Source: Verrucomicrobiaceae bacterium
GTDB taxonomy: Bacteria > Verrucomicrobiota > Verrucomicrobiia > Verrucomicrobiales > DEV007
DNA length: 34,852 nucleotides
Assembly: GCA_012719225.1 (NCBI GenBank)
Contig: JAAYAT010000391.1
Coordinates: 1 to 34,852, forward strand
Direction: 5' to 3'
Shown: in pieces, positions 14,090 to 29,638 of the stretch
Position numbering within the stretch: position 1 is the first letter of the stretch
Layout: each line of letters begins with the position of its first letter
Notes under the pieces: model-generated
Database searches by the model: none
Told to the model about the DNA's origin: nothing
Seen by the model: only the letters and a program-made list of their open reading frames with translations
Position numbers and translations under genes: made by a program

Positions 14090-15769
14090 TCAGTGGTTCG
14101 TGCCCACGGGAGGCGGGGCGGGCAGGGCGCGGATTTCCTTGACCATATCCGGAACCACTTCGGTGCCGTTGTTCTCCCAACTGTTGTAGACGTAGGTGAG
14201 CACGTTGGCGACCTGTTCGTCGTCGAGACCGAGCTGGGGCATGATGCTGTTGTAGACCTGTCCGTTGACGGTGATGGAGCCCTCCAGCCCGTGGATCACC
14301 GTCGAGATGGCGCGGTTCACGTCTGCGTTGAGGTAATCGGACGAGGCGAGCGGAGGAAAGGCCTGGAGGATGCCCTGGCCTTCGGGTTGGTGACAGGCCA
14401 TGCAGACCTGGGTGTAGACCATCTTGCCGCGCTCGATGCGCTCCTGCTTGTTCGCCGCCGCCGGCTGTTGGGTGGATTGCTGAGGGATGGTCTGGACGGT
14501 CGCACCTTCGAGCATGTAGACGCGGTCGTGCTGTTTGCCGGAATAGGTCAGCAGGTCTTCCTTGCCCGTGACGGTGATCGTGGCGATCGCGCCCTTGTTG
14601 AAGGCCCGGAAGATGGAGTGATCGACGAGGGTGATATTTCCGGGCACATTCAGTTCGAACTCGGTGATGGTGGCACCGCCGGCGGGGATCAGGGTTGTCT
14701 GGACCTGATTCTGGTTCGGTCGGATACCGCCCTCGCCGTAGACGGTGTCGAAAATCTCGCCGATCGCGTGGAAAGAGGAGACCAGGTTCGGACCGCCGTT
14801 GCCGACGAAGAGGCGCACCGTCTCGCCAACCTGGGCGTTGACCGAGTTGTCTCCGGCCATCGCTCCGACGGCGCCGTTGAAGACGACGTAGTCGGGGATT
14901 TCGGTGAGGGCTTTCTCCATGCTGAAGGCCTGCAGCCCGCCCTCGCCGTAGCTGCCTTCGGTGTAGAATTCGGACTGCATCAGATAGAATTCCTTGTCGA
15001 CCTCGGGCAGTCCGCCGATGGGTTCGACGAGGATGAGGCCGTACATTCCGTTGGCGATGTGCATGCCGACGGGGGCGGTGGCGCAGTGGTAGACGAAGAG
15101 CCCGGGGTTGAGGGCCTTGAAGGAAAAAACGGAAACGTGTCCGGGCGTGGTGAAGGAGGCGGCCGCCCCGCCGCCGGGTCCGGTGACGGCGTGCAGGTCG
15201 ATGTTGTGGGGCATCTTGCTGTCGGGATGGTTGATGAGGTGAAACTCGACCTCGTCGTTTTGTCGGATCCGCATGAACTTGCCCGGCACGCTCCCGCCGA
15301 AGGTCCAGAAGGTGTAGTCCACCCCGTCGGCGAGGCGCTTGACCACCTCGATGCATTCGAGTTCGATTTTCACCTTGGTGGGGTGATCGCGCGTGAGCGG
15401 AGGAGGCACGTGCGGGGCGTCGGTCAGGATCGCCACCTCTTGTCCCGTGACGGGTTTGTCGGGTTGCCGGGTGGAACGGGCGTAGAACTCATGGGATCGA
15501 TCCGCGGGTGGAGTGGCGGCATCGGAAGGTGCTGGCGCGGCGACGGATGGGGCCGGAGCGGACGGAGCGGCGGGTGGCGCGGCCGCCGCCACGGCTTGGA
15601 TTTCTTCGGAGAAACTCTCCTGGGACATTTTCTCGTTGGGACTGAGTTCGCGTTGTTCACACTGGACGAGGAAAACGGCGAGTCCGGGAAGGAGGAGGCG
15701 GTAGGGGAGAGCCATGCGCTTTTTGAGGTGCGGTGTTGAGAGATGGTTCGGAAGATAGGGGGATTTCAT
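14090..15769 (-). CDS. nirK: AniA/NirK-type copper nitrite reductase lipoprotein with C-terminal cytochrome c
   Basis: Reduces nitrite to nitric oxide. Two starts are possible: 15769, or ATG 15715, which gives a compact lipoprotein signal (MALPYRLLLPGLAVFLVQC) with the cysteine after FLVQ. An Ala/Pro-rich linker (about 40-85) follows, then two cupredoxin domains. Type 1 copper ligands are seen in MPHNIDLH and YHCATAPVGMHIANGM. Type 2 ligands are the second His of the first motif, the His before the Cys, and the His of VDHSIFRAFNKGA. The catalytic Asp (NIDLHA) and His (FHAIGEIFD) are kept. Wording around these sites resembles Neisseria AniA. A C-terminal cytochrome c domain has VCMACHQPEGQG (CxxCH) and a likely Met ligand in SIMPQLG, an electron entry for the enzyme. 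Located on the outer side of a membrane. First gene of a two-gene unit with NirV-SCO1. Confidence 0.95.
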   Translation of the reverse strand: MKSPYLPNHLSTPHLKKRMALPYRLLLPGLAVFLVQCEQRELSPNEKMSQESFSEEIQAVAAAAPPAAPSAPAPSVAAPAPSDAATPPADRSHEFYARSTRQPDKPVTGQEVAILTDAPHVPPPLTRDHPTKVKIELECIEVVKRLADGVDYTFWTFGGSVPGKFMRIRQNDEVEFHLINHPDSKMPHNIDLHAVTGPGGGAAASFTTPGHVSVFSFKALNPGLFVYHCATAPVGMHIANGMYGLILVEPIGGLPEVDKEFYLMQSEFYTEGSYGEGGLQAFSMEKALTEIPDYVVFNGAVGAMAGDNSVNAQVGETVRLFVGNGGPNLVSSFHAIGEIFDTVYGEGGIRPNQNQVQTTLIPAGGATITEFELNVPGNITLVDHSIFRAFNKGAIATITVTGKEDLLTYSGKQHDRVYMLEGATVQTIPQQSTQQPAAANKQERIERGKMVYTQVCMACHQPEGQGILQAFPPLASSDYLNADVNRAISTVIHGLEGSITVNGQVYNSIMPQLGLDDEQVANVLTYVYNSWENNGTEVVPDMVKEIRALPAPPPVGTNH

Positions 15770-15853: not shown

Positions 15854-16915
15854 TCAGGGCGAGGTTCCGCCGGGAGGGTGCAGAACCCTCACCGAACCGG
15901 CTTCGGATTCCGCGATTGAGGCGGTGTAGAAGGCTCCGATATCGCCTCCCGGTTCGGCGGCGTTGTAGGCGATCGCGCTGCGGGGATGGAGGTTGCGCAG
16001 CCCGGTGATCATGTAAGGAAGGTCGAAGCCCCATCCCAGTTCGGCCCGCATCGGTTCAATCGTTTCGGCGACACACCGGAGCACGGGCGGCAACCGGTAT
16101 CTCGGATCGTCGAGGAACCCGAGGAGGAGTTCCATGGGGCAGTTGCCGGCCCCGCGTCCGAGTCCGCCCATCGTCGCGTCGAGCCAGGTCGCGCCGGCGG
16201 CGTGGGCTTCGAGGGTGTTGGCGAAGGCGAGTTGCAGGTTGTTGTGGGCGTGGATGCCCACCCGGATGCCGGACGGGGAGAGCGCGGCGAGATATTTTTC
16301 CACGAGTCGGCGGGTCTCGGCCATGTGGAGCGCGCCGAAACTGTCGACGACGTAGACGGCGTCGGCCTCGGAGTCGGCGAGGAGCGGGAGTGTCTCGTCG
16401 AGTTCGGAATCCCGGATCGTGGTGACGGCCATGAGGTTGAGGGTGGTTTCGTAGCCCTTGTCGCGGGCGTCCTTCACCATCTCGAGGGCGAGGGGGAGCT
16501 GGTGACGGTAGCAGGCGACGCGGACGAGATCGACGACGCTCTCGGTCCGTCGCGGGATGTCCTCGCGAAAGTCGCATTTCCCGGCGTCGGCCATGATGGA
16601 GAGTTTGGGAGCGTCGTCTCGGTCTCCGACGATGCGCCGGATGTCCTCCTCGAGACAGTATTTCCAGCAGCCGTTCCGTCCGGTCGCGATGTCTTTGCGG
16701 GAGGCGCGGTAACCAATCTCCATGTAGGCGATCCCGGAGGCGGCGCAGGCGGCATGAACCGCCGCGACGACGCGGTCCTCGAAACGATGGTCGTTCATCA
16801 GCCCGCCGTCGCGGATGGTGCAGTCGAGCACGTGGAGGGCGGGCGGCGTCGCTGCCGGTGTTTCCCGACCGCATGGTTCGTCGGGGAGCGGGCCGTTGTC
16901 ATTGATCGATTTCAC
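15854..16915 (-). CDS. HMGL-like (DRE-TIM) aldolase
   Basis: A 353-residue TIM-barrel aldolase related to 4-hydroxy-2-oxovalerate aldolases and HMG-CoA lyase. The family signature is LDCTIRDGG (30-38), whose R35/D36 bind substrate and metal. The second metal site is HAHNNLQLAFANT, followed by the glycine-rich GGLGRGAGNCPMELL. These enzymes cleave or form a C-C bond next to a 2-oxo acid, usually pyruvate or acetaldehyde; the substrate here is not known. The start is GTG 16915, overlapping the stop of the PPC gene as GTGA, which signals translational coupling. A much longer upstream frame to 17416 only runs antiparallel-frame through the PPC gene and is not credible. There is no signal peptide, so it is cytoplasmic, unlike the exported genes before it. 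Confidence 0.85.
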   Translation of the reverse strand: MKSINDNGPLPDEPCGRETPAATPPALHVLDCTIRDGGLMNDHRFEDRVVAAVHAACAASGIAYMEIGYRASRKDIATGRNGCWKYCLEEDIRRIVGDRDDAPKLSIMADAGKCDFREDIPRRTESVVDLVRVACYRHQLPLALEMVKDARDKGYETTLNLMAVTTIRDSELDETLPLLADSEADAVYVVDSFGALHMAETRRLVEKYLAALSPSGIRVGIHAHNNLQLAFANTLEAHAAGATWLDATMGGLGRGAGNCPMELLLGFLDDPRYRLPPVLRCVAETIEPMRAELGWGFDLPYMITGLRNLHPRSAIAYNAAEPGGDIGAFYTASIAESEAGSVRVLHPPGGTSP

Positions 16916-18936
16916 GGGAGGGGTGGCCGGGGGCCGGTGCGGGTTGGGTTCGGGGCGGCATTTTCGGGCGGGGTGCGCACGTCGATCAGGAGCGCATCGA
17001 CCGGCACGAGATGGCGGTAGGCGAAGGCCTGCATCATGTCTTCGGCGGGCACGGCCTCGACGACGACGGTCTCGCCTTCGATCTCGGCGACGCCCTCGAC
17101 ACGCAGCGCGACGGGTCGGTCCGTGTCGCCATCGGGCACGGAGAGGTAGACGTCGACCTTTTCCCCGCCCTCCGGCACGGGGCCGCCGCTGAGGGCGAAT
17201 CCCTCCGGCGGGTCCTGGAGCCGAAGGTGGATGGGGCCGTCGAAGCCGTCGACGCGCAGGGCGTGGACGGTGAGGCGGGCGGAGGAACCGGGTCTGGTGT
17301 TCAGTGTTCCCGGGGTGGCCCGGAGGACGAATCCGGGGACGGCCGGGGCGATGCGGAGACGGTAGCTGTAATCGTAGCCGTAGCGGTTCTGGGTGTCGGC
17401 GACCCGGACGAAACAACGCCCGTTGGCGGGCAGGATCACGGTGACGCGGGCGTCGGCGTGGTGGGTGGTCAGCCCGGCGGCGGGATCCTCGTAGTCGTCG
17501 TTGTAGGCGAGCATCGCGCCATCGTCGTCGAAGACGGTCAGGTTCGCGTCGAGCGGGGAACCGAGGCGACGGGCGAAGATCTCGAAGCTCATGGGCTTGT
17601 TCCCGGGACCTTGGACCCGGTAAAAATCGACGTCGCCGGGGACCGAGATGGTTCCGTTGACGAGGGTGGGCACAGTCACCGGATTCGCCGTCCCGAGCCG
17701 GTTGTTGTCCTCCCGCTCCGCGTCTTCGGGAAAGGACTCGACGTGGAAGGCGACGGGATTGGAGCGACCGCCCGGACCGCTCGCGACCAGTTCGACGATA
17801 CCGGGTTCCCGGGGCACGGGGTGGCGAGGAAAATAATGTTCCGTCAGGTTCGCGCCGTGGAAGGTCAGGTCGATCTCCGATCCGGCCTGACCGCCGAGCG
17901 GAGTGACCGCGGTGAGGAAGGGCAGTTCGCCGAGACGGATTCGGTAGACGAAGTCCTCCCGTCCCCGGTAAATGGCGTCCCGGATGCGGAGGCGGTATTC
18001 CCCCTCTCTCGGGATTTGGTAAAAAATGACGGGGTCCGGGTCGAACTGGTGGTCGTCCGCGAAAACCAGCTCGCGTCCCCTCGCGTCGTGCAGGGAGACG
18101 ACCGCCTGAAACCAGCCCGGCACCGCGTCGGCGAGATAGGGGATGAGGGTGCGGGCTTGCAGAGAAACCACGAGCTTTTCGCCCTCCTCCGCGCGAAAGA
18201 CGAACTCGTCGACCTCGCCGGGGAGAATCCGGCCGTTCAGGGTGGCGGGCGGGACGACCGGCTCGGTTTTGGGAAGCTGCGAACGGCCCGGGGGTACGTC
18301 GGGGACGAGACCGACTTGCTGGAGCAGGTCGAAGCGATGCGGCTCGGGTTCGAGCACTTCGGGGAGATTCCCGACGACGAAGCGCAGGGGATTGCTCAGG
18401 CCGGAGACGGTTCGGAGACGCCAGTGGTGGATCCCGGGCTCCGCGTCCCCGGCGATGGTCACGCGCACTCGCACCCTCTCGCCGATCTGGGTGTTGAGTT
18501 GCTGTTTCGGATCGCTGCGGCGGCGGTAGTATTCGCTCATGAGGCGGAGCTTTTTCTCGTCCAGCCCGGCGTCGGCGAGGATCCGTCGGACCTCGGGGAG
18601 AAGATCGGCATCCCCGTCCACGACGCGCTCTTTCAGCGTCTCCAGTTCGGGGCGGAGTTCGCGGAGTTTGCTGCGGTGGTCGTCGGCGACCTGGGCGATG
18701 GGGATCTTGTCATGCTCGAGGATCTCCACCCGGATTCCTTCGTCCGAAAGGATCACGCCGACAGGATCCTCGAGGGACTGGCCGCCCACGCTGACTTCGA
18801 AGGTGGTGCCGACCTGTCCTCCGGCGGGGTAGAGAAAGCCGATGCGCGGCGGCGCGGCGATGGCATCGGTGGCGGCCAACGCCATCGCTCCCGCGAGGAG
18901 GCGGTGGAAGAAGGAGAAGGGTGGGCATCGGTCCAT
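16912..18936 (-). CDS. Secreted PPC-domain protein, set A
   Basis: A 674-residue exported protein with a signal peptide (1-27, cleavage near AIAAP). The N-terminus contains FLYPAGGQVGTTFEVSVGG, an Ig/IPT-like opening also found in the set B paralogue (23490-25619). A charged helical stretch (about 75-150) is followed by beta-rich domains. Two PPC (pre-peptidase C-terminal) type repeats are seen around 235-345 (PGEVDEFVFRAEEGEKLVVS) and 410-530 (PGDVDFYRVQG, YNDDYEDPAAG). PPC domains are beta-sandwich modules of secreted proteins; no enzyme motif is visible. Starts 15 bases after DUF1501 and ends in a GTGA overlap with the aldolase. Probably a cell-surface or periplasmic binding component working with the DUF1501 and DUF1549 proteins (inference from gene order). 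Confidence 0.85.
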   Translation of the reverse strand: MDRCPPFSFFHRLLAGAMALAATDAIAAPPRIGFLYPAGGQVGTTFEVSVGGQSLEDPVGVILSDEGIRVEILEHDKIPIAQVADDHRSKLRELRPELETLKERVVDGDADLLPEVRRILADAGLDEKKLRLMSEYYRRRSDPKQQLNTQIGERVRVRVTIAGDAEPGIHHWRLRTVSGLSNPLRFVVGNLPEVLEPEPHRFDLLQQVGLVPDVPPGRSQLPKTEPVVPPATLNGRILPGEVDEFVFRAEEGEKLVVSLQARTLIPYLADAVPGWFQAVVSLHDARGRELVFADDHQFDPDPVIFYQIPREGEYRLRIRDAIYRGREDFVYRIRLGELPFLTAVTPLGGQAGSEIDLTFHGANLTEHYFPRHPVPREPGIVELVASGPGGRSNPVAFHVESFPEDAEREDNNRLGTANPVTVPTLVNGTISVPGDVDFYRVQGPGNKPMSFEIFARRLGSPLDANLTVFDDDGAMLAYNDDYEDPAAGLTTHHADARVTVILPANGRCFVRVADTQNRYGYDYSYRLRIAPAVPGFVLRATPGTLNTRPGSSARLTVHALRVDGFDGPIHLRLQDPPEGFALSGGPVPEGGEKVDVYLSVPDGDTDRPVALRVEGVAEIEGETVVVEAVPAEDMMQAFAYRHLVPVDALLIDVRTPPENAAPNPTRTGPRPPLP

Positions 18937-18951
18937 GGCGGATAGGGGAGG

Positions 18952-20343
18952 TCAAACCAGTTCGGTGAGGAGTCCGCCGGTGGGGACTCCCTCGGATGTG
19001 TCGGGGACGACCTTGGTGGGGGTGCCCTGTGGATGTGGCAGCGGCGCGTCGGAGGGGATGCCGAGCTGACCGTAGATGCTCCCGATCACGTCGGCGGGGT
19101 AGACGGGGCGGTCGCTCACCTCCTCGCCCTTCGCGTCGGAGGCACCGACGACGTGGCCTCCGTGGAAGCCGCCGCCGGCGATGAGGCAGGAGAAAACCTT
19201 GCCGTAGTGGTGGCGACCGCCGTTCCAGGGAGATTCGTTCGCCACTTTCGGGGTGCGGCCGAATTCCCCGGTACACCAGACGACGGTGCTATCGAGCAAC
19301 CCCCTGCCGTCGAGGTCGGTGAGGAGGGCGGCGAGCCCCCGGTCCAGCTCGGGCAGTTTCCGGTTCATGATTTGGAAGTGCTGCTTGTGCGTGTCCCAGC
19401 CCTGGTAGTTGATCGTGATGTAGGGCACGCCTTTTTCGACGAGGCGTCGAGCCATCAGGCAGGATTGGCCGAAGGTGTTGCGTCCGTAGAGGTCGCGGAT
19501 TTCGTCCTTCTCCTGACCGAGGTCGAAGAGCTTGCCCGCGTCGCCGAGGATGAGTTCGTAGGCTTGCGTTTCCGAATCGACCACCGTTTGGATCGCCGCG
19601 TTGCCGGGCAGGGCTCCGCCGAGGGTGTTGAGCCGACCGAGGAACTTGCGGCGCTCCCTTTGGCGTGCTTCCTCGATGCCGGGGGCGACGATGCCCTCCA
19701 CCGCAAAAACCTTCGCGTTGGGATCTCCGCCAGTGGCGAAGGGCTTGTAGCGAGGTCCGAGGAAACCCGCCTCGGAGAAGCGGCCTTGTGGCTGGGTCAG
19801 GACGACGTAGGGCGGGACGAGTCCGCTGTAGCCGGCCTCGTAGCCTTTGAAGTAGGAAACCACCGCGCCGAGTCCGGGGAAGACATCGCGCTCCGAGGTC
19901 CGCCCGGTTTGCACGAGGTAGGCGGCGGTCTCGTGTCCGTTGTTGCCGTGGGTCATGCTGCGGATCAGCGAATATTTGTCGGCTTGTTTGGCCAGTTCGG
20001 GGAGGAGCTGGCCGATGCGGATGCCACTGACGTTCGTCTCGATGGCACCGTCGAGAGCGCCGGTGTAGTCGCGCCCGGCGTCCGGTTTCGGGTCGAAGGT
20101 GTCGATGTGGCAGGGACCGCCCCAGAGCCAGATTTGGATGACGGACTTCGCCTTTCCGCCGGCCGGAGGCGGGGCCGGTTCGGCACGGAGGGCGAAGGGT
20201 TCGCAGAGGAGGAGACCGGCGGAACCGTAGACGGAGCGGCGGAGGGCCTCTCGTCTGGAAAGCGGGGCACCGCCGAGGGAGTTCGTCACCCGGGCGAGGT
20301 CTCGGGCGAGTCGCGGGGAAATCGGAGGAGTGGTTCTGCTCAT
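18952..20343 (-). CDS. DUF1501 protein, set A
   Basis: A 463-residue member of the DUF1501 family, an alkaline-phosphatase/sulfatase-like fold of unknown activity, expanded in Planctomycetota and Verrucomicrobiota. The N-terminus has SRREALRRS followed by a short hydrophobic stretch, consistent with a Tat-type or similar export signal. Family hallmarks are IQIWLWGGPCHIDTFDPKP, SLIRSMTHGNNGHETAAYLV, PPYVVLTQPQGRFSE, NYQGWDTHKQHF, VVWCTGEFGRTPKV and AGGGFHGGHVVGASD. The DTFDPKP, H-rich and EFGRTP motifs correspond to metal-site regions of the superfamily. The gene follows DUF1549 (39-base gap) and precedes PPC (15-base gap). The paralogue at 25677-27092 shares every hallmark. Substrate unknown. 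Confidence 0.9.
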   Translation of the reverse strand: MSRTTPPISPRLARDLARVTNSLGGAPLSRREALRRSVYGSAGLLLCEPFALRAEPAPPPAGGKAKSVIQIWLWGGPCHIDTFDPKPDAGRDYTGALDGAIETNVSGIRIGQLLPELAKQADKYSLIRSMTHGNNGHETAAYLVQTGRTSERDVFPGLGAVVSYFKGYEAGYSGLVPPYVVLTQPQGRFSEAGFLGPRYKPFATGGDPNAKVFAVEGIVAPGIEEARQRERRKFLGRLNTLGGALPGNAAIQTVVDSETQAYELILGDAGKLFDLGQEKDEIRDLYGRNTFGQSCLMARRLVEKGVPYITINYQGWDTHKQHFQIMNRKLPELDRGLAALLTDLDGRGLLDSTVVWCTGEFGRTPKVANESPWNGGRHHYGKVFSCLIAGGGFHGGHVVGASDAKGEEVSDRPVYPADVIGSIYGQLGIPSDAPLPHPQGTPTKVVPDTSEGVPTGGLLTELV

Positions 20344-20382: not shown

Positions 20383-21978
20383 TCAATGGTTGTAAAAGAA
20401 CTCGGGCTGGTTGATCAGCGCCCAGACGAGGTCGGCGGCGAGGGCGCGTCCCGGGGTGGCACCGGATTCGGCGTAGGCGCGGACTTCGGCGATCTCCTCC
20501 GCCGTGGGATGCCGTGAGAGGACTGTCAGGTAGGCGTCCTCGGCGAGCGCGGCGGGATCGTCGGAGGAGGCTCTGGAGACGAGCGGGCTGGCTTCGATTT
20601 TCTTCTGGATGTGACTGGAGTTGAGAAAATGGAGGCGTTGTGCGGCGTTGGTCTCGAGGCTGCGTTCGGACTGATGACCGGTGTCCCTCGGGGGGCGTCC
20701 GAAGAGTTCGAGGAAGGAGCTGGTGATGCTGCCGTCGGGCAGGGCGATGCCGCGGACATCCTCGGGAACGAAGGTGAAGGGCTCGGGCGTCGCGCTGCTG
20801 TAGGCTTCCCTCGTCTCCGTGATTTGGTTGAGGGCGTCGATGAGAACCTCGGCCTCGAGCCTCCGCATCGGATAGTGGGCGAATTGAGCGGCGGCTTCGG
20901 GCGTGTCCTGCGCCGGGATGGGGGAGAGGGCGAAGGTCCGGGAGTTCAGGATCACCCGGACGAGGTGCTGGATGTCGCAGCGCGAGGCGATGAATTCGCG
21001 TTCGAGAAAGGCGAGCAGCTCGGGATTCGAGGGCGGGTTGTCCGGGCGGAAATCGTCGGGTTCGTGGACGATGCCGCGGCCCATCAGCCAGGTCCAGACA
21101 CGGTTGACGGCGCAGCGGCTGAACCAGGGATTTTCCGGTCGGAGGAGCCAGTTCGCGAAGACGGCCCGGGGATCGCGCCTGCCGGGATCGAGCTTCGCCG
21201 GGGTGCCGTCGGGGAAAATGGCGTCCTTGTGGAGACCGTCCCGGTCGGCGTTGGGGTCGAAGTAGACGATCTCCTCTTTCCATTCGGCGGTGGGTTTGAA
21301 GGCCACGTTGGCGAAGAATCCGGCCATGGCGTCGAGTTTCCGCTCGGGCCATTTTTCGGCGCGTTCGCCCAGGAAGGTCAAGGCGACGGTCGCGGCGATG
21401 CCTCGGGGGGCCCGGTCTTGCATCGCCCGGTAGAAGTTCACCTGACCTTCGCGGAAATTGCTGCCCGTGCCCACGAGCAACTCCTGGGCGAACTGGTGGT
21501 AGGGCTTGTTCTCGCGGACGCTTCCAAGAATCCACTGATGGTAGGCCTGCACCGCGTTGGGCCAGAGGTTGATGGGAAACTCGGCCTTCACCCGGAGCAC
21601 GTCGGCCCACCGCATCGCCCAGTAGTCGGCGTATTCCGGTCGCGAGAGGAGATGCTCGACGAGGAGGACGCGCTTGCTTTCGTCCTGCGAAGCGAGAAAA
21701 TCCCGCGCTTCGTCCTCGCGCGGCAGGGTGCCGATCGTGACGAGATAGGCGCGGCGCAGGAAGACCGCGTCGGAGCTGTCCCGCGCCGCTTTCAGGCCCA
21801 GTGCGTCGAGTTGCGCGAAGACGATCCGGTCGAGCTCGTCGCTGGGATTTTCCGATTTCCCGGGAGGAGGCGCGACCGGCCCGGATTCGAAAACCGGATG
21901 GACGCCGTCGCCCGCCGCTTCCCACGCAAGACCGCATGCGGCGACCAGAAGGAGAGGACGGAGACGGGCGGGGTTCAT
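20383..21978 (-). CDS. DUF1549/DUF1553 (PSCyt2-PSD1) protein, set A, without cytochrome domain
   Basis: A 531-residue exported protein. The start ATG 21978 is chosen because a signal peptide follows (MNPARLRPLLLVAACGLAWE); the frame continues upstream to 22209 but only across the preceding gene. Residues about 40-260 are DUF1549/PSCyt2: DAVFLRRAYLVTIGTLPR, FPINLWPNAVQAYHQW, FYRAMQDRAPRGIAATVALT. Residues 290-515 are DUF1553/PSD1: NPWFSRCAVNRVWTWLMGRG, HEPDDFRPDNPPSNPELL, YPMRRLEAEVLIDALNQIT. Many family members carry a cytochrome c-like PSCyt1 domain in front; this one has no CxxCH. The gene begins five bases after the Rid gene stop and shares motif order with its paralogue 27132-28970. Function unknown. 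Confidence 0.9.
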   Translation of the reverse strand: MNPARLRPLLLVAACGLAWEAAGDGVHPVFESGPVAPPPGKSENPSDELDRIVFAQLDALGLKAARDSSDAVFLRRAYLVTIGTLPREDEARDFLASQDESKRVLLVEHLLSRPEYADYWAMRWADVLRVKAEFPINLWPNAVQAYHQWILGSVRENKPYHQFAQELLVGTGSNFREGQVNFYRAMQDRAPRGIAATVALTFLGERAEKWPERKLDAMAGFFANVAFKPTAEWKEEIVYFDPNADRDGLHKDAIFPDGTPAKLDPGRRDPRAVFANWLLRPENPWFSRCAVNRVWTWLMGRGIVHEPDDFRPDNPPSNPELLAFLEREFIASRCDIQHLVRVILNSRTFALSPIPAQDTPEAAAQFAHYPMRRLEAEVLIDALNQITETREAYSSATPEPFTFVPEDVRGIALPDGSITSSFLELFGRPPRDTGHQSERSLETNAAQRLHFLNSSHIQKKIEASPLVSRASSDDPAALAEDAYLTVLSRHPTAEEIAEVRAYAESGATPGRALAADLVWALINQPEFFYNH

Positions 21979-21983
21979 GGCGG

Positions 21984-23372
21984 TCAGTGGTCGGGAATTT
22001 CGGAGACCCCTCGGGGAAGGGCGGAAAAGGCGACTCCCTCGATTTCGACGAGGAGGTCGGGGCGGCACACGTCCGCCAGGGCGTAGATCGCGGGGATGGC
22101 GCCGAGGCGTCGCTCGCAGACCGCGCGGCAGGTTTCGTAATCCTCGGGACGCTTCACATAGACGCGCACCTTGGCCAGGTCCCGCAGGCTCGCCCCGGCG
22201 TCCGCCCATCCATGGCGGGCGAAGTTTTCCGGAGCGATCAGTTTCTCAATGTTGTCGAGAGTCTGCTCGGTCTGCCTGGCGGCGTCGCCGGGATGGACCG
22301 TCGCGGCGTTGACGATGCTGGCCGTCCCGGAGATCCAGGTGGTGAGATGGTCGCCGATGCGGAGGGCCATGGCCCGGGAGAATTTGGGACTCTTCCTCGA
22401 ATACTCCTTCGGGTAGTCGAAGGCGGAGGTCTGTCCGGGGTTTTCGAGCGAGAGGAGGCGCACGTCCTTCCGGTCCGTGCGGAGGGCGAGGCAGGCGGTG
22501 ACGAGACCGTGGCCGAGGGTGCCGATCCCCGTGCTCGCCGGGTAGATGGCGTGACCGTGCGGTGCGTCGGCGAGGGGATTCGAGCGGAAATCGGTGTCCT
22601 CAAAGTAGTCGGTCCGCGCCCGGTTCAGTTCCCGGTAGCGTTCGATGCCATTTTCCTCCTCGGTGATGTTTCCTTGGTAGAGCCATACCCTGGCCACATC
22701 GCGGAAGGAAGCATCCACGGCGGAGAGGACCTTGCCGAGCGACTCGAAGGCTTCGGCGGACTGCTCGTAGGCGCTGCGCCGACCGAGACCGAGCGATCCG
22801 GCCGAGGCGTGAATCCAGCGGATTCCGTCGTGCTCGACGGTGACGAGATGCGGGCCGTGGTAGCCCACACTGACGGTCCGGGTGCTGATCGCCCAGGCCT
22901 CGATGGCGAGGGCGGAGCCTCCGCAGGGGGGGTGCACGACAAAGAGCGTCAGAGGCATCTCCTCGCCGTAGTAGGCTTCGAATAGCCGCAGGGCGTCGGG
23001 GGCGTCGTCCGCGTCCGCGAGGAAGACGGTCTGGACGGTCAGCGCCATCGGTTCGCCTTGTTGGCGGAGGATGGCCCGTATCGTGGACATCGACTCCCAG
23101 ACCTGATCACGGAAACTTCCGCCGCCGTCCGGCGTCACCATCATCGCGACGCGCCGCAATCCGTCGTATCCGAGGGTGGTGTGGTGCTGCTGGCCGAGCA
23201 GGCAGGGCGGGATCTCGTGGAGCGCCTCCACCGCGTCGGTCGGCGAGCAGTGTTCGCAATCGACCAGATCGCAGTCGCCATCGAGGAGGTGCCGGTCCGG
23301 CGCGAGGTGATAGCAGATCGTCTTGGTGGAGCGATCTGGACGGAGGGTGGGCGAGATCGTAGTGGCGCTCAT
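21984..23372 (-). CDS. Rid-superfamily protein related to FkbO/Hyg5 chorismatases
   Basis: A 462-residue cytoplasmic protein with no signal peptide. Three Rid (YjgF)-like segments can be traced: about 75-165, 170-345 and 380-455. The middle part has the wording of the chorismate-converting FkbO/Hyg5/XanB2 group: IERYRELNRAR, IYPASTGIG, SLENPGQTSAFDYPKEYSRK, SPKFSRAM and TWISGTASIVNAATVHPGD. Those enzymes convert chorismate to a dihydroxy acid or hydroxybenzoate. The N-terminal 70 residues are unusual, with clustered Cys/His (CDLVDCEHC and GQQHH) that could bind a metal. It is longer than typical chorismatases (about 330-390). The first gene after a 117-base gap; a possible leaderless promoter lies just upstream. 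It leads directly (5 bases) into DUF1549 set A. Activity on chorismate is inferred by family and not demonstrated here. Confidence 0.8.
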   Translation of the reverse strand: MSATTISPTLRPDRSTKTICYHLAPDRHLLDGDCDLVDCEHCSPTDAVEALHEIPPCLLGQQHHTTLGYDGLRRVAMMVTPDGGGSFRDQVWESMSTIRAILRQQGEPMALTVQTVFLADADDAPDALRLFEAYYGEEMPLTLFVVHPPCGGSALAIEAWAISTRTVSVGYHGPHLVTVEHDGIRWIHASAGSLGLGRRSAYEQSAEAFESLGKVLSAVDASFRDVARVWLYQGNITEEENGIERYRELNRARTDYFEDTDFRSNPLADAPHGHAIYPASTGIGTLGHGLVTACLALRTDRKDVRLLSLENPGQTSAFDYPKEYSRKSPKFSRAMALRIGDHLTTWISGTASIVNAATVHPGDAARQTEQTLDNIEKLIAPENFARHGWADAGASLRDLAKVRVYVKRPEDYETCRAVCERRLGAIPAIYALADVCRPDLLVEIEGVAFSALPRGVSEIPDH

Positions 23373-23489: not shown

Positions 23490-25619
23490 TCAGGGCGAGA
23501 CGCTGCATTCGGCGATTCGCTTGGCAGCGAAGGCGTCCGTCAGCAACTCCTCTTGATAGAGTTGGTTGATCCGCCTCATCCGTCCCGCGATCTGGCTTTC
23601 GGTGAATTTGGCGTCCGCGGCTTTCGTGGCGGCGAGGGTCTCTGGATCGGGCGGCGGCAGGGGGCGCTCCGCCGGAGGTTTCGCCCCGGGATCCGGCACG
23701 AGGACGCGGAGGTTTGCGGCCGGAACGAGATGACGCCAGAGGAAGGCCTGCATGCGGTCCTCCGTCGGAACGACCGGGCGTTGCACGGCTTTTCCGGCTA
23801 TCGTCGCGGTGCCGGTGAACTCGAGCGAGAAGGATTTTCCAAAGGCTTCGGGTTCGGCTTTGAGGACGATTCTCGCGGTCGTCTTGCCCGGAGCCAGCGT
23901 GACCGGAGCGCAGAGGAGACCGGGCGGTGGATCTTTCAGGGCGACTTGGATCGGTCCTTCGTAGCCGTCTCGGCGCGCCGCGTGCAGGGTCAGGGCGGCA
24001 CCCGACTTGGCGGTGACCGTGGCGCTCGAAGGGGTGATGCGCAGGTCGAAAGAGGGTTGGGCCGGCGCGAGGCGGAGTCGATAGGTGTATTCACTGCCGC
24101 CGGAGCGCGTTGCCTCGCTCAGGTGCAATTGATAGTGTCCGTCCGCAGGCAGCGTCGCGAGGAGACGGGAGTCGGCGTGATGGGTGTTGGTCCCCGCCGC
24201 GAGATCCTCGTGGTCGTCGTTCAGGGCGAGGAGGGCACCGTCGGGACCGACGAGTTGAATCACGGAATCGACCGGGGAATCGAGTCGGCGCGCGGAGACT
24301 TCCGCGGCGACTGCCTGGTTCGCCTTGCCCTCGAAGGCGAAGACGTCCCGGTCGCCCGGCGTCCCGATCCGCCCGTTCACGATCACGGGCAAAGTCACCC
24401 GCTGGGGTGCGCCCGGGGGATCGTTCGGCTCCACTTCGAGCCATTCCGGAAGGGTGTCGAGCACGAAGGGGAGCGGGTTCGAGAGCTGCCCGTCGCGCTT
24501 CGCCGAGACGAGGTGCAATCCCGGTGCGTCCTTCGCCGTGGGATGGAGGATCACGGCTCCGTCGAGATTCCAGCCTTGGACCTGGACCGAGGGCGTCGCT
24601 CCCGCGATGCCGCCCAGGGGAAAAACACCCGTGAGGTAGGGCAGCTCGCCAATGGTCAGGCGGTAGAGGAAATCCTCGCGGCCCCGGTGGATCGCGTCGG
24701 TGATCTCGGCCACGTATTCCCCGTCGGCGGGAACCTCGAAGAGGAGGACCGGATCGGGCTGGAAGCGGAAATCGTCCTCGGAGGCGATCTCGCGTCCTTT
24801 CGCGTCGCGCAGCACGAGGACCGGCTGGAACCAGCCCGGCACCGCGTCGGCGATGAAGGGGACGAGTTCCCGGGCGAGGACGGAGAGCACGATCCGCTGG
24901 CCTTTGCGCGCCGGAAAGCGATAGCGGTTGACCTCGCCCGAAGCGATCTGGCCGTTCACGGTGCAGGGCGGCTCGACGCGGCGCTCGACTTCCTCTTCGG
25001 GCCGTTTGCGGAGGGAAAGCGCCTCTTTACCGAGAACTTGGAAGGGAGAGGTGAGCATGGGTTCCCGGCTCGATTCGGGGAGCTGTCCGACGTGGAAAGC
25101 CACGGGATTGGTGATGCCGGTGGCGGTGGCGAGCCGGATCTCCCGCCGCCCCGGTGCCGCGTCGGGGGCGATGCTGACCTCCAGGAAGACGAGGTCGGCG
25201 AGGGCCGCGCTGGCGGGGCGGTTGCAGTATTCCTCGAGGCGTCGTTCGATCCGGGTCATCAGGGCGTCCGTCTCCGCGTCCGGCGTCTTTTCCCCTTCTT
25301 GACCTTCCTTGCCTTCCTTTTTCAATCCTCCCTTCAGCTCCTTCAATTGATCTCGCAGCAGGGTGATCTCCTGGGGACCGATCCGCTTGTAGCATTGGAC
25401 GACCTTGGCGGAGACGCTCTTTCCGGTGACCTCGACGCCCGTCACCGTGGCGAGGGCCTGCCCGCCCACCTTCACCGGAAAGGTGGTGCCCTGCTGCCCT
25501 CCGGCAGGATAGACGTAGCCGGTGTAAGGCCGCGCCTGGGCGCAAACGACGAGCGGTGCGAAGACGGCGGCGGCGCTCAGGAGCGCGAGCCGTCGGCGGG
25601 GGCGGGGGCGGGAATCCAT
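23490..25619 (-). CDS. Secreted PPC-domain protein, set B
   Basis: A 709-residue exported paralogue of the set A protein. Signal peptide 1-28 (basic MDSRPRPRRR, then LALLSAAAVFAPLVV, cleavage near CAQA). It opens with YVYPAGGQQGTTFPVKVGG, followed by a highly charged helical stretch (about 75-125). PPC-type beta domains are seen around 215-330 (ASGEVNRYRFPARKGQRIVL) and 390-515 (PGDRDVFAFEG, LNDDHEDLAAG). Compared with set A, it has a C-terminal extension of about 50 residues after the RHLVPAANLRVLV segment, with a P-rich part and a helix ending in FAAKRIAECSVSP. No catalytic motif is visible. It follows DUF1501 set B by 57 bases and ends 117 bases before the Rid gene. Role inferred only from gene order. 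Confidence 0.85.
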   Translation of the reverse strand: MDSRPRPRRRLALLSAAAVFAPLVVCAQARPYTGYVYPAGGQQGTTFPVKVGGQALATVTGVEVTGKSVSAKVVQCYKRIGPQEITLLRDQLKELKGGLKKEGKEGQEGEKTPDAETDALMTRIERRLEEYCNRPASAALADLVFLEVSIAPDAAPGRREIRLATATGITNPVAFHVGQLPESSREPMLTSPFQVLGKEALSLRKRPEEEVERRVEPPCTVNGQIASGEVNRYRFPARKGQRIVLSVLARELVPFIADAVPGWFQPVLVLRDAKGREIASEDDFRFQPDPVLLFEVPADGEYVAEITDAIHRGREDFLYRLTIGELPYLTGVFPLGGIAGATPSVQVQGWNLDGAVILHPTAKDAPGLHLVSAKRDGQLSNPLPFVLDTLPEWLEVEPNDPPGAPQRVTLPVIVNGRIGTPGDRDVFAFEGKANQAVAAEVSARRLDSPVDSVIQLVGPDGALLALNDDHEDLAAGTNTHHADSRLLATLPADGHYQLHLSEATRSGGSEYTYRLRLAPAQPSFDLRITPSSATVTAKSGAALTLHAARRDGYEGPIQVALKDPPPGLLCAPVTLAPGKTTARIVLKAEPEAFGKSFSLEFTGTATIAGKAVQRPVVPTEDRMQAFLWRHLVPAANLRVLVPDPGAKPPAERPLPPPDPETLAATKAADAKFTESQIAGRMRRINQLYQEELLTDAFAAKRIAECSVSP

Positions 25620-25676: not shown

Positions 25677-27092
25677 CTACATGATTTCGGTGAGGAGACC
25701 GCCGGAGGGGGCTTTCCCCGGATCTTTGGGCAAAATGTGCGCCTCCAGCCCCATGGGATGGGGCAGGGACGCCTTGCTGTCGATCCCGGCGAGTTGGTAG
25801 ATGCTGCCGAGCAGATCGGTCGGAGAGACGGGGCGCTCCGCGACTTCCATGGCCTTCTCGTCGGATGCGCCCACGACGTGGCCGCCTTTGAATCCGCCTC
25901 CGGCCACGAGCACGGAGAAGACCTTCCCGTGGTGGTTGCGGCCGCCGTTCCAAGGCGGCTGCCAATCCACCTTGGGGCCGCGCCCGAACTCGCCGCAGCA
26001 CCAGACCAGGGTGGTGTCCAGCATTCCCCGGTCGTGCAGGTCGGCGAGGAGGGCGGCGAGCCCTTGGTCGAGTTGGGGCGCTTGCCGACCCATGGTCTGG
26101 AAGTGGTTGCTGTGCGTGTCCCATCCGCCGGGGTAGTTGATGACAATGTAAGGGACGCCGGCCTCGGCCATGCGCCGCGCCGCGAGGCAGTCCTGCCCGA
26201 AGGTGTGGCGACCGTAGCGGTCCCGGAGTTCGGGCTTTTCCTTGGAGAGGTCGAAAACCTCGCGGCCCTTGCCGAGAATCATCTCGTAGGCCTCGGTCCG
26301 GGCGGCCTGCGAGGCCCGCACGAGGGGATCGTCGCCCGCCGACTTTCGCAGGGTGTCGAGACTCGCGAGCAGATCGCGCCGGGCCTCCTGACGGGCGTCC
26401 GCGACGCGGCGCGAGACGATTCCCTCGACTTCGAAGCGCGAGGCGTTGGGATCGCCTCCGGTGGCGAAGGGCTTGAGCCGGGCTCCGAGGAATCCCTCCT
26501 CCGAGAAACGTCCTTGCGGTTTCGTTAGGACGACGTAGGGCGGCAGGCTGCCTTTGTATTCCTGCTCCTTCATGTGGGCGAAGACCGCGCCGACGCTGGG
26601 GTAGGCGAGGCGGTCGCCCGGCGCGTGGGCCGTTTGCACGAGGTAGGCCGCGGTCTCGTGGCCGTTGTTGCCGTGCGTCATGCTGCGGATGAGGGAGTAT
26701 TTGTCGGCCTGCTTGGCCAGCTCCAGGAACCATTCACTGAGCTGGATGCCGGGAACGTTCGTGGAGAGGAATTTTTTCAGCGGTCCGTTGTAGTCGTATC
26801 CGGCGTCGGGCTTCGGATCCCAAGTGTCGGAATGGGACATGCCGCCCCAGAGGAAAATTTGGATCACCGTGGTGGCCTTGGCGCTGGGCTTGGTTTTTTT
26901 CGCCGCGGCGGCGGCGTCCGGCGGAGCGGCGGGTGGAGTCGATCCCATGGCACCGCCGCGTCCGAGGAATCCGAGGGTGCTGAAAAGTCCGATCTGCATG
27001 GCGCCGCGTCGGTCGATGGATCGGCTCAGGCTCATGCCGAGGTGGTTCGGATGGGTGGGGAGGGACCAGATGGGAGGATTGGGAGGGATCAT
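25677..27092 (-). CDS. DUF1501 protein, set B
   Basis: A 471-residue DUF1501 protein, paralogue of 18952-20343. ATG 27092 is used; ATG 27035 is also possible. The N-terminus has basic residues (SRSIDRRGAM) before QIGLFSTLGFLGRGG, an export-signal-like stretch. Hallmarks: IQIFLWGGMSHSDTWDPKP, SLIRSMTHGNNGHETAAYLV, PPYVVLTKPQGRFSE, GGWDTHSNHFQTMG, VWCCGEFGRGPKV and GGGFKGGHVVGASD. Against set A, EFGRTPKV has become EFGRGPKV and DTFDPKP has become DTWDPKP. An Ala-rich linker (residues 50-70) precedes the domain. Separated from DUF1549 set B by 39 bases, the same spacing as in set A. Confidence 0.9.
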   Translation of the reverse strand: MIPPNPPIWSLPTHPNHLGMSLSRSIDRRGAMQIGLFSTLGFLGRGGAMGSTPPAAPPDAAAAAKKTKPSAKATTVIQIFLWGGMSHSDTWDPKPDAGYDYNGPLKKFLSTNVPGIQLSEWFLELAKQADKYSLIRSMTHGNNGHETAAYLVQTAHAPGDRLAYPSVGAVFAHMKEQEYKGSLPPYVVLTKPQGRFSEEGFLGARLKPFATGGDPNASRFEVEGIVSRRVADARQEARRDLLASLDTLRKSAGDDPLVRASQAARTEAYEMILGKGREVFDLSKEKPELRDRYGRHTFGQDCLAARRMAEAGVPYIVINYPGGWDTHSNHFQTMGRQAPQLDQGLAALLADLHDRGMLDTTLVWCCGEFGRGPKVDWQPPWNGGRNHHGKVFSVLVAGGGFKGGHVVGASDEKAMEVAERPVSPTDLLGSIYQLAGIDSKASLPHPMGLEAHILPKDPGKAPSGGLLTEIM

Positions 27093-27131: not shown

Positions 27132-28970
27132 TCAGTGGCGGAAGAGGAATTCATGGGTGTTGAGCAGAGCCCAGGCGAGGTCGTTCCAATGTTCGGGGCG
27201 CACGGGCTTCTGGTCGGGCTTGTCGTCCGCGCCGAGACCGCAGTAGGCCCGGGCGGTGACGATTTCCTCCGGGCCGGGGTGGCGCGAGAGGATCGCGAGA
27301 TAGAGTGCTGTGATGGTCTCGTTCACGGGACGCTTCGCCGAGACGAGGGCCTTGATGCCGGGGCCGTTTTCGAGCTTTTCCTGGATGTGGCTCGAGTTGA
27401 GGAGATGAATCCACTGGCCGGACACGACCTGGCCGGTCCGCTCGCTCTCGGTTCCGGTGGCTCTGGCGGAGCGACCGAAGAGCGAGAGAAAAGGACTCGT
27501 GATGCTGCCGTCGCCGATGGAGACGGCGGGTTGCCCCTGCGGAATGTAGGTAAAGGGCTCGGGAATGGGGCTGGTGTAGAGCTCCGTGGTTCCGGTGATC
27601 CGGTTGATCGCGTCGATCAAGACCTCCGCTTCCAGGCGACGCATCGGATAGGCGGCGAAGAGCGCTTCGGCTTCCGGCGACGTCGATCCCGCGACGGAGG
27701 CGAACTGGTAGGCCTCGGAGTTGAGGATGAGCCGGTAGAGGTGCTTCAGATCGTATTCCGCGCCGATCAGTTCCTTCTCCAGGTAGGCGAGCAACTCGGG
27801 ATGAGAAGGCGGATTGTCGTCCCGGAAATCGTCCGCCTCGTGGACGATGCCGCGCCCCATCAGCCAGAACCAGACCCGGTTCGCGATGGCGCGGGTGAAC
27901 CAGGGATTCTCCGGTGAGATCAGCCAGTCGGCGAAAATCTCGCGCGGGTCGCGGTCGGTGGAGAGGGTGACTTTGGTTCCGTCAGGGAAAACGGCTTCCT
28001 TGGGAAAGGCTGCCGGGTTGGCCGTCGCCGCGAGCCCCGCGTCCTCGAAGGGCGTTCCGATTTCGGCGATGGAGGGGCGTCCCGGCGCGGCGTTGCCCGC
28101 GATGGCGTGGGAACCGGTCGGATCCCAGAAGACGTATTCCTCCTTCCACTCGCTGGTGGGCTTGTAGCCGACTTGAGAGAAAAAGGCCGCCATCCCGGCG
28201 AGTCGGTCCTGCGGCCAGGCTTCGGTGCGGCTGCCCAGGAACGTGAGGGCCACGCCCGAGGCGATCCCTTCGGGCGTGCGGCTTGGCAGGGCGCGGTAGA
28301 AATTGACCGGACCGACGCGGTAGTTGCTCCCGCTCGAGGTCAGCAGCTCGCGGACGAACTGGTCGTAGGGCTTGTTCTGCCGGAGCGAGTCGACCACCCA
28401 GCGGTGGTAGAGCTGGGCCGCGTTGGGCCAGAGGTTGATGGGGAACTCCGCCTTGATGCGGAGGAGATCGCCCCACTTCATCGCCCGGTAGACGCTGCAT
28501 TCGTCGCGGGAGAGCAGTTGCTCGGTCAAGGCCTTGCGCTTGTTGGCGGCATCGGGATTCGCGATGAAGGCCCGCGCCTCCTCCGCCGTCGGCGGGATGC
28601 CGATGAGGTCGAGGTGGACGCGCCGAACGAAGACCGCGTCCGAACAGAGCGCAGGTTGGATGCCGAGCGGGCGGAGCTTCGCCATGACGAGCCGGTCGAT
28701 CCGGCTTTCCGTCTTCAGGGGGAGGGGACTGGTGAAGAGATCGGAAGAACGCGGCGGCGTCGGCTTCTCCGCGACCTTGGGTTTCGCGGGTGGAGGCGTC
28801 GGGGGTTCCGCCGAGCGCAGGTCCCAAGCCGGTCCGAGCAGGAGCGCCAATGCGATCCCATACCGCAGACCAATGCCCGGATACGAGGCGAGCTTTCCGA
28901 TTCGAGCACGCTGAGTCCATTCGGAAAATCCCGTGCGGAGACAGTCGGAAAACTCACCGATCCAGCTCAT
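27132..28970 (-). CDS. DUF1549/DUF1553 (PSCyt2-PSD1) protein, set B
   Basis: A 612-residue exported protein, paralogue of 20383-21978. ATG 28970 is preferred over an upstream TTG at 29006. The N-terminus has a hydrophobic stretch (about 30-50, GIALALLLGP) after a basic region, then a Pro-rich linker. DUF1549: DAVFVRRVHLDLIGIPPTAE, FPINLWPNAAQLYHRW, NFYRALPSRTPEGIASGVAL. DUF1553: NPWFTRAIANRVWFWLMGRG, HEADDFRDDNPPSHPELL, YPMRRLEAEVLIDAINRIT. It has no CxxCH. An insertion of about 30 residues around DPTGSHAIAGNAAPG distinguishes it from set A. This is the first gene of the minus-strand block; the divergent gene is an Rrf2 regulator 209 bases away. Confidence 0.9.
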   Translation of the reverse strand: MSWIGEFSDCLRTGFSEWTQRARIGKLASYPGIGLRYGIALALLLGPAWDLRSAEPPTPPPAKPKVAEKPTPPRSSDLFTSPLPLKTESRIDRLVMAKLRPLGIQPALCSDAVFVRRVHLDLIGIPPTAEEARAFIANPDAANKRKALTEQLLSRDECSVYRAMKWGDLLRIKAEFPINLWPNAAQLYHRWVVDSLRQNKPYDQFVRELLTSSGSNYRVGPVNFYRALPSRTPEGIASGVALTFLGSRTEAWPQDRLAGMAAFFSQVGYKPTSEWKEEYVFWDPTGSHAIAGNAAPGRPSIAEIGTPFEDAGLAATANPAAFPKEAVFPDGTKVTLSTDRDPREIFADWLISPENPWFTRAIANRVWFWLMGRGIVHEADDFRDDNPPSHPELLAYLEKELIGAEYDLKHLYRLILNSEAYQFASVAGSTSPEAEALFAAYPMRRLEAEVLIDAINRITGTTELYTSPIPEPFTYIPQGQPAVSIGDGSITSPFLSLFGRSARATGTESERTGQVVSGQWIHLLNSSHIQEKLENGPGIKALVSAKRPVNETITALYLAILSRHPGPEEIVTARAYCGLGADDKPDQKPVRPEHWNDLAWALLNTHEFLFRH

Positions 28971-29179
28971 AATAGAAAAGCCTACGCCCCGGATCGGGGA
29001 ACGCAAGTTAAAAAAGAAAAAACTCTCTTTTATTCTGTATTTGGATAAGAAGAGAAAACATTCTTTCTTTCTTGATATGGCGGGCCTTGGGCTGCACCGT
29101 ATTCATCGGGGCCAGGTCGCCGGCTCGCGGCCTCTTCTTTCCGCGCCGCTCGCGCGTCCGAGCCAAACCCGTCGCATTC
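28971..29179. promoter_or_regulatory. Divergent control region between set B and the Rrf2 gene
   Basis: A 209-bp gap between oppositely oriented genes, with an AT-rich core (29006-29080) likely to hold promoters for both. A near-perfect palindrome CCCCG-GAT-CGGGG lies at 28987-28999, about 17 bases before the DUF1549 ATG, and is a candidate operator. I do not see a confident -35/-10 pair on either strand. Confidence 0.4.
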
Positions 29180-29638
29180 ATGTATCTCTATGGAAAAACC
29201 GCATCGAACGCCATCGCGATCATGAGCTACCTTGCGGAACGACCCGACGAACTGGTGGGGTCGTCGGAGATCGCGGCGGCGAGACGGATTTCGCGTGCGC
29301 TCACCGCGAAACTGTTGACGCAACTGTCGGCGGCCGGTTACGTGCGGGGACAGCCGGGTCCCGGTGGCGGTTACATGCTGGCCAAGGACGCTTCCGAGAT
29401 CAATCTGCTCAGTATCGTGGCCCTCTTCGAGCAGACCGAGGGACCCTCGCTCTGCCCGTTCGGACAGGGCTGGTGCGGCATCGAAGAACCCTGCCCCCTC
29501 CACGACACCTTGCTGTCGCTGCAGGAGCGCAGCGCGGAATTCCTGGAAAACACGCGGTTCTCCGTCTTTCGCCCCGAACCAGCGGGAGCGGTGGATGGGG
29601 CCGAGGAGGATTCCGATCCCGGCGAGCTTTCCGGATAG
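29180..29638 (+). CDS. Rrf2-family regulator with Fe-S ligand cysteines
   Basis: A 152-residue winged-helix regulator. The start ATG 29180 is chosen because the family begins at this MYLYGKTASNAIAIMSYLAE. The recognition helix region is ARRISRALTAKLLTQLSAAG and the wing is GQPGPGGGYML. The cluster ligands are C92, C99 and C105 with H108 (C-x6-C-x5-C-P-L-H), almost the spacing of IscR/NsrR. These proteins bind [2Fe-2S] or [4Fe-4S] and sense cluster supply, redox state or NO. The C-terminal 25 residues are acidic and probably disordered. It is divergent from the minus-strand block, which includes nirK 13 kb away, so an NO-responsive role is attractive but unproven. Convergent with the aldolase/SDR gene (15 bases between stops). 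Confidence 0.9.
   Translation: MYLYGKTASNAIAIMSYLAERPDELVGSSEIAAARRISRALTAKLLTQLSAAGYVRGQPGPGGGYMLAKDASEINLLSIVALFEQTEGPSLCPFGQGWCGIEEPCPLHDTLLSLQERSAEFLENTRFSVFRPEPAGAVDGAEEDSDPGELSG

Follow-up and report, generated by a model that had tools for sequence, protein, structure and literature searches.

The verrucomicrobial stretch analysed here (34,852 nucleotides, called the window below) holds a gene for a chorismatase-like protein between two trios of genes of the PSD1, DUF1501 and PPC-type families, an arrangement that raises the question of what such a protein would make and what its product would have to do with its neighbours. The gene (21984-23372, minus strand) is an intact open reading frame of 462 amino acids plus a stop codon and is present as a single copy in its own genome. 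According to the excerpts available from PMC5615132 and PMC4452313, nothing is known of the function of PSD1/PSCyt and DUF1501 proteins, and the window's own 4-Mb genome contains 37/38 PSD1 and 36/37 DUF1501 matches over the cut-off, some of which are pieces of one gene. We favour, at somewhat better than even probability, a reading in which this protein of the chorismatase fold works in the cytoplasm as a lyase that converts chorismate, its product being tied to an exported PSD1-DUF1501-PPC module. With this gene, the range of chorismatase-like enzymes is no longer limited to polyketide and pigment clusters.

Three Rid units on a chorismatase fold

Three stretches of the protein match PF01042 (Rid/L-PSP), and residues 199-296 match PF21168 (FkbO_Hyg5-like_N) at 35.1 bits, over the cut-off of 27. 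An AlphaFold model made from an input alignment of 20 sequences (mean pLDDT 79.6, pTM 0.83) consists of three successive Rid-type folds, whose boundaries we read from the model's list of strands and helices as about residues 61-163 (22884-23192), 168-299 (22476-22871) and 304-451 (22020-22463), all on the minus strand. They are preceded by a tail of 60 residues (23193-23372, minus strand) that carries a CDLVDCEHC motif and an ‘[LM]xPDRxLL’ stretch and is mostly disordered in the model. All four motifs quoted in the earlier note on this DNA are present, namely CDLVDCEHC at residues 34-42, GQQHH at 60-64, YPASTGIG at 277-284 and ISGTASIV at 347-354. The first of the two chorismatase-type motifs lies in the middle unit, as had been claimed, but ISGTASIV, assigned to the same unit, belongs to the third.

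The best full-length fold matches in the PDB are Hyg5 and FkbO, followed by single Rid domains with Z of about 16. In the VIA-align comparison, 318 of the 333 residues of Hyg5 (5ag3, residues 8-340) aligned to model residues 69/70-449 with a Z of 31.3, and FkbO (4bps) matched with a Z of 30.5, which places the window protein in the chorismatase fold superfamily along the whole chain. The same two structures were matched by sequence (5ag3, 1.6e-35; 4bps, 2.1e-32). The earlier note had set three Rid-like segments in this protein against two in known chorismatases. The count of three stands, but since Hyg5 and FkbO align over model residues 69/70-449, the known chorismatases reach across all three. 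What they have of the first unit is a shortened remnant, about 30 residues less in Hyg5, where it spans 58 residues (8 to Glu66) against 90 in the window protein (69 to Glu158) when Glu66 is paired with Glu158 by eye.

In the window protein, unit 1 is complete in the predicted model, with both helices present, and on its own it resembles RidA (profile match to human p14.5, E 1.6e-6, positions 69-150). Because the same three-unit layout recurs in 21 shorter relatives of the phylum (profile-profile comparison, 349 columns, positions 62-453), an intact first unit is a trait of the wider lineage and not peculiar to the window protein. The shortened first unit of Hyg5 and FkbO becomes easier to understand against a lineage whose three Rid units are all intact. 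Within unit 1, Cys150 (codon 22923-22925) and Glu158 (codon 22899-22901) are invariant in 20/20 rows of the window protein's family, here called A1. The pair parallels Cys436/Glu443 of unit 3, while Hyg5 has Thr60/Glu66 there by eye, and a second site around Cys150/Glu158 is possible.

The earlier note had also proposed a metal site in the Cys/His-rich N-terminus. The C-x4-C-x2-C cluster occurs in 7/39 distinct relatives, the window protein included, and the QHH/QQH stretch is wider spread (28/39). Residues 1-20 and 33-56 of the window protein have a pLDDT below 50 in the model. Because the Cys cluster is restricted to 7/39 relatives and lies within a disordered tail, we rejected a metal site as a family-wide feature; a site limited to one lineage may exist in the tail. 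No signal peptide was seen by eye at the N-terminus, and judging by sequence the protein is most likely cytoplasmic.

A conserved operon with PSD1, DUF1501 and PPC-type genes

The chorismatase-like gene is the first of four consecutive genes on the minus strand (cassette b). Its stop codon is separated by 5 bases from the ATG of a PSD1/PSCyt2 gene (DUF1553/DUF1549; 20383-21978; PF07587 and PF07583), a family kept downstream in relatives, which is followed by a DUF1501 gene (18952-20343; PF07394) and a gene for a PPC-type exported protein (16912-18936), named from its conserved place in the order and from a match to PF04151 of 18.5 bits, below the cut-off of 25.9. Upstream on the same strand lies the second trio (cassette a), with a PPC-type gene (23490-25619; PF04151 21.5 bits, below the cut-off), a DUF1501 gene (25677-27092; PF07394) and a PSD1/PSCyt2 gene (27132-29006, start codon tentative; PF07587 and PF07583). 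This operon context was missed by the earlier reader, and we regard it as the more important finding compared with the sequence observation.

The operon of chorismatase-like, PSD1, DUF1501 and PPC-type genes is kept in nearly all Verrucomicrobiales relatives. The PSD1, DUF1501 and PPC families were each found in 25 of 27 sources, counting the window, 26 loci and the near-duplicates among them. Of the 288 genomes examined in the order, 32 contain the chorismatase-like gene (counted above 250 bits) and 31 an ortholog of the cassette b DUF1501 protein (76% identity or more), with both in 30, the gene without the ortholog in two and the ortholog without the gene in one. The three discordant genomes are G024, G218 and G178; in G178 the contig ends on the side of the cassette where the chorismatase-like gene is expected. 

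For the shorter sister proteins, 10/40 loci adjoin a PSD1-DUF1501-PPC trio, nine after the PPC-type gene and one before PSD1; the profile used there for PPC-type proteins was pooled from the cassette a and cassette b homologues. Complete cassettes also occur with no chorismatase-like gene adjoining, in at least three cases (L160, L161, L162), and several members lack the cassette (L090-L094, L096, L058 and L052, the last of these a short contig). Mapped on the tree described below, the presence of the cassette needs at least 9 changes. Upstream genes vary among the 14 loci examined, and no shared one was seen in them.

The PSD1, DUF1501 and PPC-type partners have signal-like N-termini by eye. 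The heme motif CxxCH was found in none of 29 PSD1, 29 DUF1501 and 28 PPC-type cassette proteins. Reading a function from the structure of the PSD1 partner was tried and set aside, its model being middling (mean pLDDT 67.6) and a Foldseek search of the PDB giving no match at E <=0.001 (best 1.4). The DUF1501-containing genomic module of PVC bacteria (Kamneva et al., 2012) has the same DUF1501 partner family, and the available passages of PMC4452313 and PMC4960237 report signal peptides for several of its proteins; unlike for the window cassette, those passages name no chorismatase-like partner for the module. A search of the open-licence literature for DUF1501 together with DUF1553 gave no match.

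Because the gene comes first in an operon with PSD1, DUF1501 and PPC, its product, or a derivative of it, is most likely tied to the exported module, which would need that product or have it made alongside. This makes the operon a first chemical clue to three exported protein families, and with a fixed partner whose active site can be recognised and whose substrate is common, the function of PSD1 and DUF1501 proteins becomes testable.

Active site, lineage and the likely reaction

We compared 21 active-site positions in an alignment of 80 rows (92 before near-identical and partial rows were removed), of which 31 belong to A1. This comparison with Hyg5 and FkbO, which the earlier note had proposed, found the catalytic and signature residues of Hyg5 in every A1 row. 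Gly282 (codon 22527-22529), Gly349 (22326-22328), Cys436 (22065-22067) and Glu443 (22044-22046), the first in unit 2 and the others in unit 3, correspond to Hyg5 Gly173, Gly240, Cys327 and Glu334 and are kept in 31/31. Thirty rows, the window protein among them, equal Hyg5 at the compared positions except for Lys in place of Arg at 407, and the remaining row (L049) matches Hyg5 at all 21. In the accessible part of PMC7170507, Gly164, Gly231 and Cys318 of Nat-hyg5 are given as the type II signature residues, together with the catalytic Glu; we converted this numbering to that of Hyg5 with an offset of 9. The type II (Hyg5-like) signature is thus present as Gly282, Gly349 and Cys436 throughout A1, as is the catalytic Glu, and the loss of catalytic residues that the earlier note considered fatal to its reading is not seen.

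A protein with these residues could plausibly convert chorismate to a hydroxybenzoate, and by analogy with Hyg5 (a type II chorismatase and 3-hydroxybenzoate synthase; PDB 5a3k, 5ag3) the product would most likely be 3-hydroxybenzoate. A single chain with three Rid units would mimic the Rid trimer, with active-site residues mainly in the third unit. As in Hyg5, Glu443 would protonate the methylene of chorismate, and Cys436 and Gly349 would shape the route of pyruvate exit and 3-hydroxybenzoate formation. Chorismate synthase is present in the window's own genome. The dihydroxy acid that the earlier note had entertained as a product is disfavoured. FkbO, the type I chorismatase that makes such an acid (PDB 4bps), has the fold and the catalytic Glu in common with the window protein but carries Ala at both positions where the latter has Gly349 and Cys436. 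These two residues are common to every row of the alignment except FkbO and, being universal outside it, argue against an FkbO-type product and not for the 3-hydroxybenzoate type specifically. In an alignment with 2dyy, plain Rid proteins also have Glu at the Glu443 position, and Tyr430 of the window protein stands at the place of the conserved active-site Arg of RidA.

In a quick maximum-likelihood tree of the 80 rows, rooted at the midpoint, the window protein and 58 others lie on one side of a branch with an SH-aLRT of 100; on the other side are Hyg5 and FkbO, the short verrucomicrobial chorismatases and four proteins from plasmids whose annotation is FkbO/Hyg5 chorismatase. The TIGR04444 model (FkbO/Hyg5 chorismatase) matches all 20 A1 members, with a best E of 1.1e-56, and the window protein, for which the cut-off was compared, scores 176.5 bits against 325. 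Because of its tree position and the missed cut-off we call the protein chorismatase-like and not a member of FkbO/Hyg5; its lineage is sister to the clade of FkbO, Hyg5 and the short chorismatases and not inside it. The new subfamily foreseen in the earlier note is supported in this form, with the fold and residues of Hyg5/FkbO kept in a protein that stands outside the clade of characterised enzymes and below the TIGR04444 cut-off. Compared with Hyg5, the window protein is 25% identical in the fold alignment, has a complete first Rid unit and an N-terminal tail, and is encoded in the operon with PSD1, DUF1501 and PPC instead of a polyketide cluster. The open-licence literature yielded no match for chorismatase together with Verrucomicrobia.

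So deep and separate a lineage would also fit a kept fold with a changed reaction, in which the substrate is a different enol-pyruvyl or aromatic metabolite, or the protein binds a ligand as sensor or regulator, and no hydroxybenzoate results. The complete unit 1, with an invariant Cys150/Glu158 pair in place of the Thr60/Glu66 of Hyg5 (by eye), points the same way, as does the fusion of four relatives to an FHA domain, which suggests signalling. We consider such a change unlikely, although it is the best of the alternatives, given that all checked Hyg5 catalytic positions are unchanged in 31/31 rows and that two members lie beside a gene for DAHP synthase, the entry enzyme of the chorismate pathway. 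In L165 that gene shares the strand of the adjoining chorismatase-like gene and lies about 165 bases from it, and in L177 the two neighbours are divergent (2/39 distinct proteins, with none in the window), and the chorismatase of a Pseudonocardia plasmid has the same kind of neighbour.

We think it decidedly improbable that chorismate is converted, as by XanB2, to 4-hydroxybenzoate or to a mixture of 3- and 4-hydroxybenzoate for a quinone or pigment. A sister protein in Acidiphilium encoded after UbiT, UbiU and UbiV would fit the supply of a ubiquinone precursor, and some short verrucomicrobial chorismatases lie near MMPL exporters, which are expected in aryl polyene clusters. These short proteins (the L140-L157 group, XanB2-like by context) share superfamily and phylum with the window protein, but they have Ala at the Gly282 position in 14/15 rows where A1 has Gly in 31/31, they group with Hyg5 and FkbO in the tree while the window protein stands apart, and the PSD1/DUF1501/PPC cassette was found in 0/16 loci of their cluster. 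The window cassette yielded no recognisable quinone or polyketide gene.

It is very improbable that the protein is an ordinary RidA-type imine/enamine deaminase of three fused units, as in the 3x-RidA proteins such as EF_0115 (three Rid units in a single chain, according to the available text of PMC4433059), which resemble it in unit count but are fused RidA domains, whereas the window protein has Tyr430 instead of the RidA Arg, scores 37.8 bits against a cut-off of 106.25 with the general Rid model TIGR00004 and keeps, with its family, the chorismatase-type stretch ENPxQxxAxxYP...PxFxRA.

Nitrite and nitric oxide reduction genes and relatives in other contexts

The gene after cassette b encodes an HMGL-like aldolase (15854-16900, minus strand, start tentative; PF00682), of the 4-hydroxy-2-oxovalerate aldolase kind at a score below the cut-off; homologs follow the cassette in seven other loci (L032, L033, L034, L036, L097, L098, L164). 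Further 3′ lies the gene for a NirK-type copper nitrite reductase whose C-terminus carries a cytochrome c domain (14090-15769, minus strand; TIGR02376, 361.6 bits against 296.3; PF00034). Upstream of the tandem cassettes are an Rrf2-family regulator (29072-29638, plus strand; PF02082, 92.5 bits) and a fused class II aldolase and short-chain dehydrogenase of 657 amino acids (29654-31627). No hydroxybenzoate-using gene was recognised next to the chorismatase-like gene.

Genomes with the module often also carry genes for nitrite or NO reduction. A NirK match of 60% or more lies near the cassette in L032, L033, L034, L035 and L098, and L102 and L103, apparently the same genomes as L034 and L032, also carry NirK. 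A NorB-like gene is found near the cassette in L036, L041 (with its near-duplicate L042), L097 and L164; the NorB name is ours, from COX1 with NorQ-type and VWA neighbours, NCBIfam giving no name over its cut-off. NirK or NorB occurs in 23/32 genomes with the chorismatase-like gene against 17/256 without it, a comparison inflated by kinship, and within the window's genus in 6/10 with the gene against 1/22 without. The open-licence literature gave no match for nirK, DUF1501 and Verrucomicrobia together.

As a conjecture, a redox or metal-binding small molecule would fit these denitrification neighbours. A surface or quinone-like product, as the earlier note supposed, is conceivable; the partners are of exported type, and the Acidiphilium sister protein is encoded beside UbiT, UbiU and UbiV. 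A broader proposal, which we advance tentatively and think rather doubtful, is that the chorismatase supplies a hydroxybenzoate-derived molecule (a redox carrier, a metal ligand or a surface modification) that is handled outside the cytoplasm by the exported PSD1-DUF1501-PPC module, in Verrucomicrobia often within nitrite/NO respiration; that chorismatase-like proteins of several subfamilies came to be paired with the module, or stayed so, more than once; and that the FHA-fused relatives have also come under phospho-signalling control. If true, the proposal would give the first enzymatic hint at the role of a protein module that is among the most numerous unexplained ones in PVC bacteria.

The FHA domain (PF00498, 57-66 bits) is fused ahead of three Rid units in four relatives from genomes of other orders (L090:2973-4733, L091:4136-5815, L092:9151-10851 and L093:2942-4636), and the fusion suggests signalling with phospho-dependent regulation. 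In these and some other relatives the protein occurs without the PSD1-DUF1501-PPC cassette. Chorismatase together with FHA domain gave no match in the open-licence literature.

On the Acidiphilium cryptum plasmid pACRY03 (L171, 1138-4927), the sister protein, a ‘Rid family hydrolase’, is encoded directly after UbiT, UbiU and UbiV, all of which score over their NCBIfam cut-offs. In bacteria that lack both UbiC and XanB2, this protein may be the missing source of 4-hydroxybenzoate from which ubiquinone is made independently of oxygen; a gap in 4-hydroxybenzoate supply is described for Hyphomicrobium in the accessible part of PMC12423496. On two Aureibacter plasmids (L170:989-4730 and L172:1811-5560), the chorismatase-like protein is preceded by a beta-propeller/MauG-like/cytochrome c protein and followed by a 233-amino-acid protein without a Pfam match. 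In a genus of small genomes (g19), some genes for shorter chorismatase-like proteins have a peptidase U32 gene no more than 10 kb away (L122, L123, L124).
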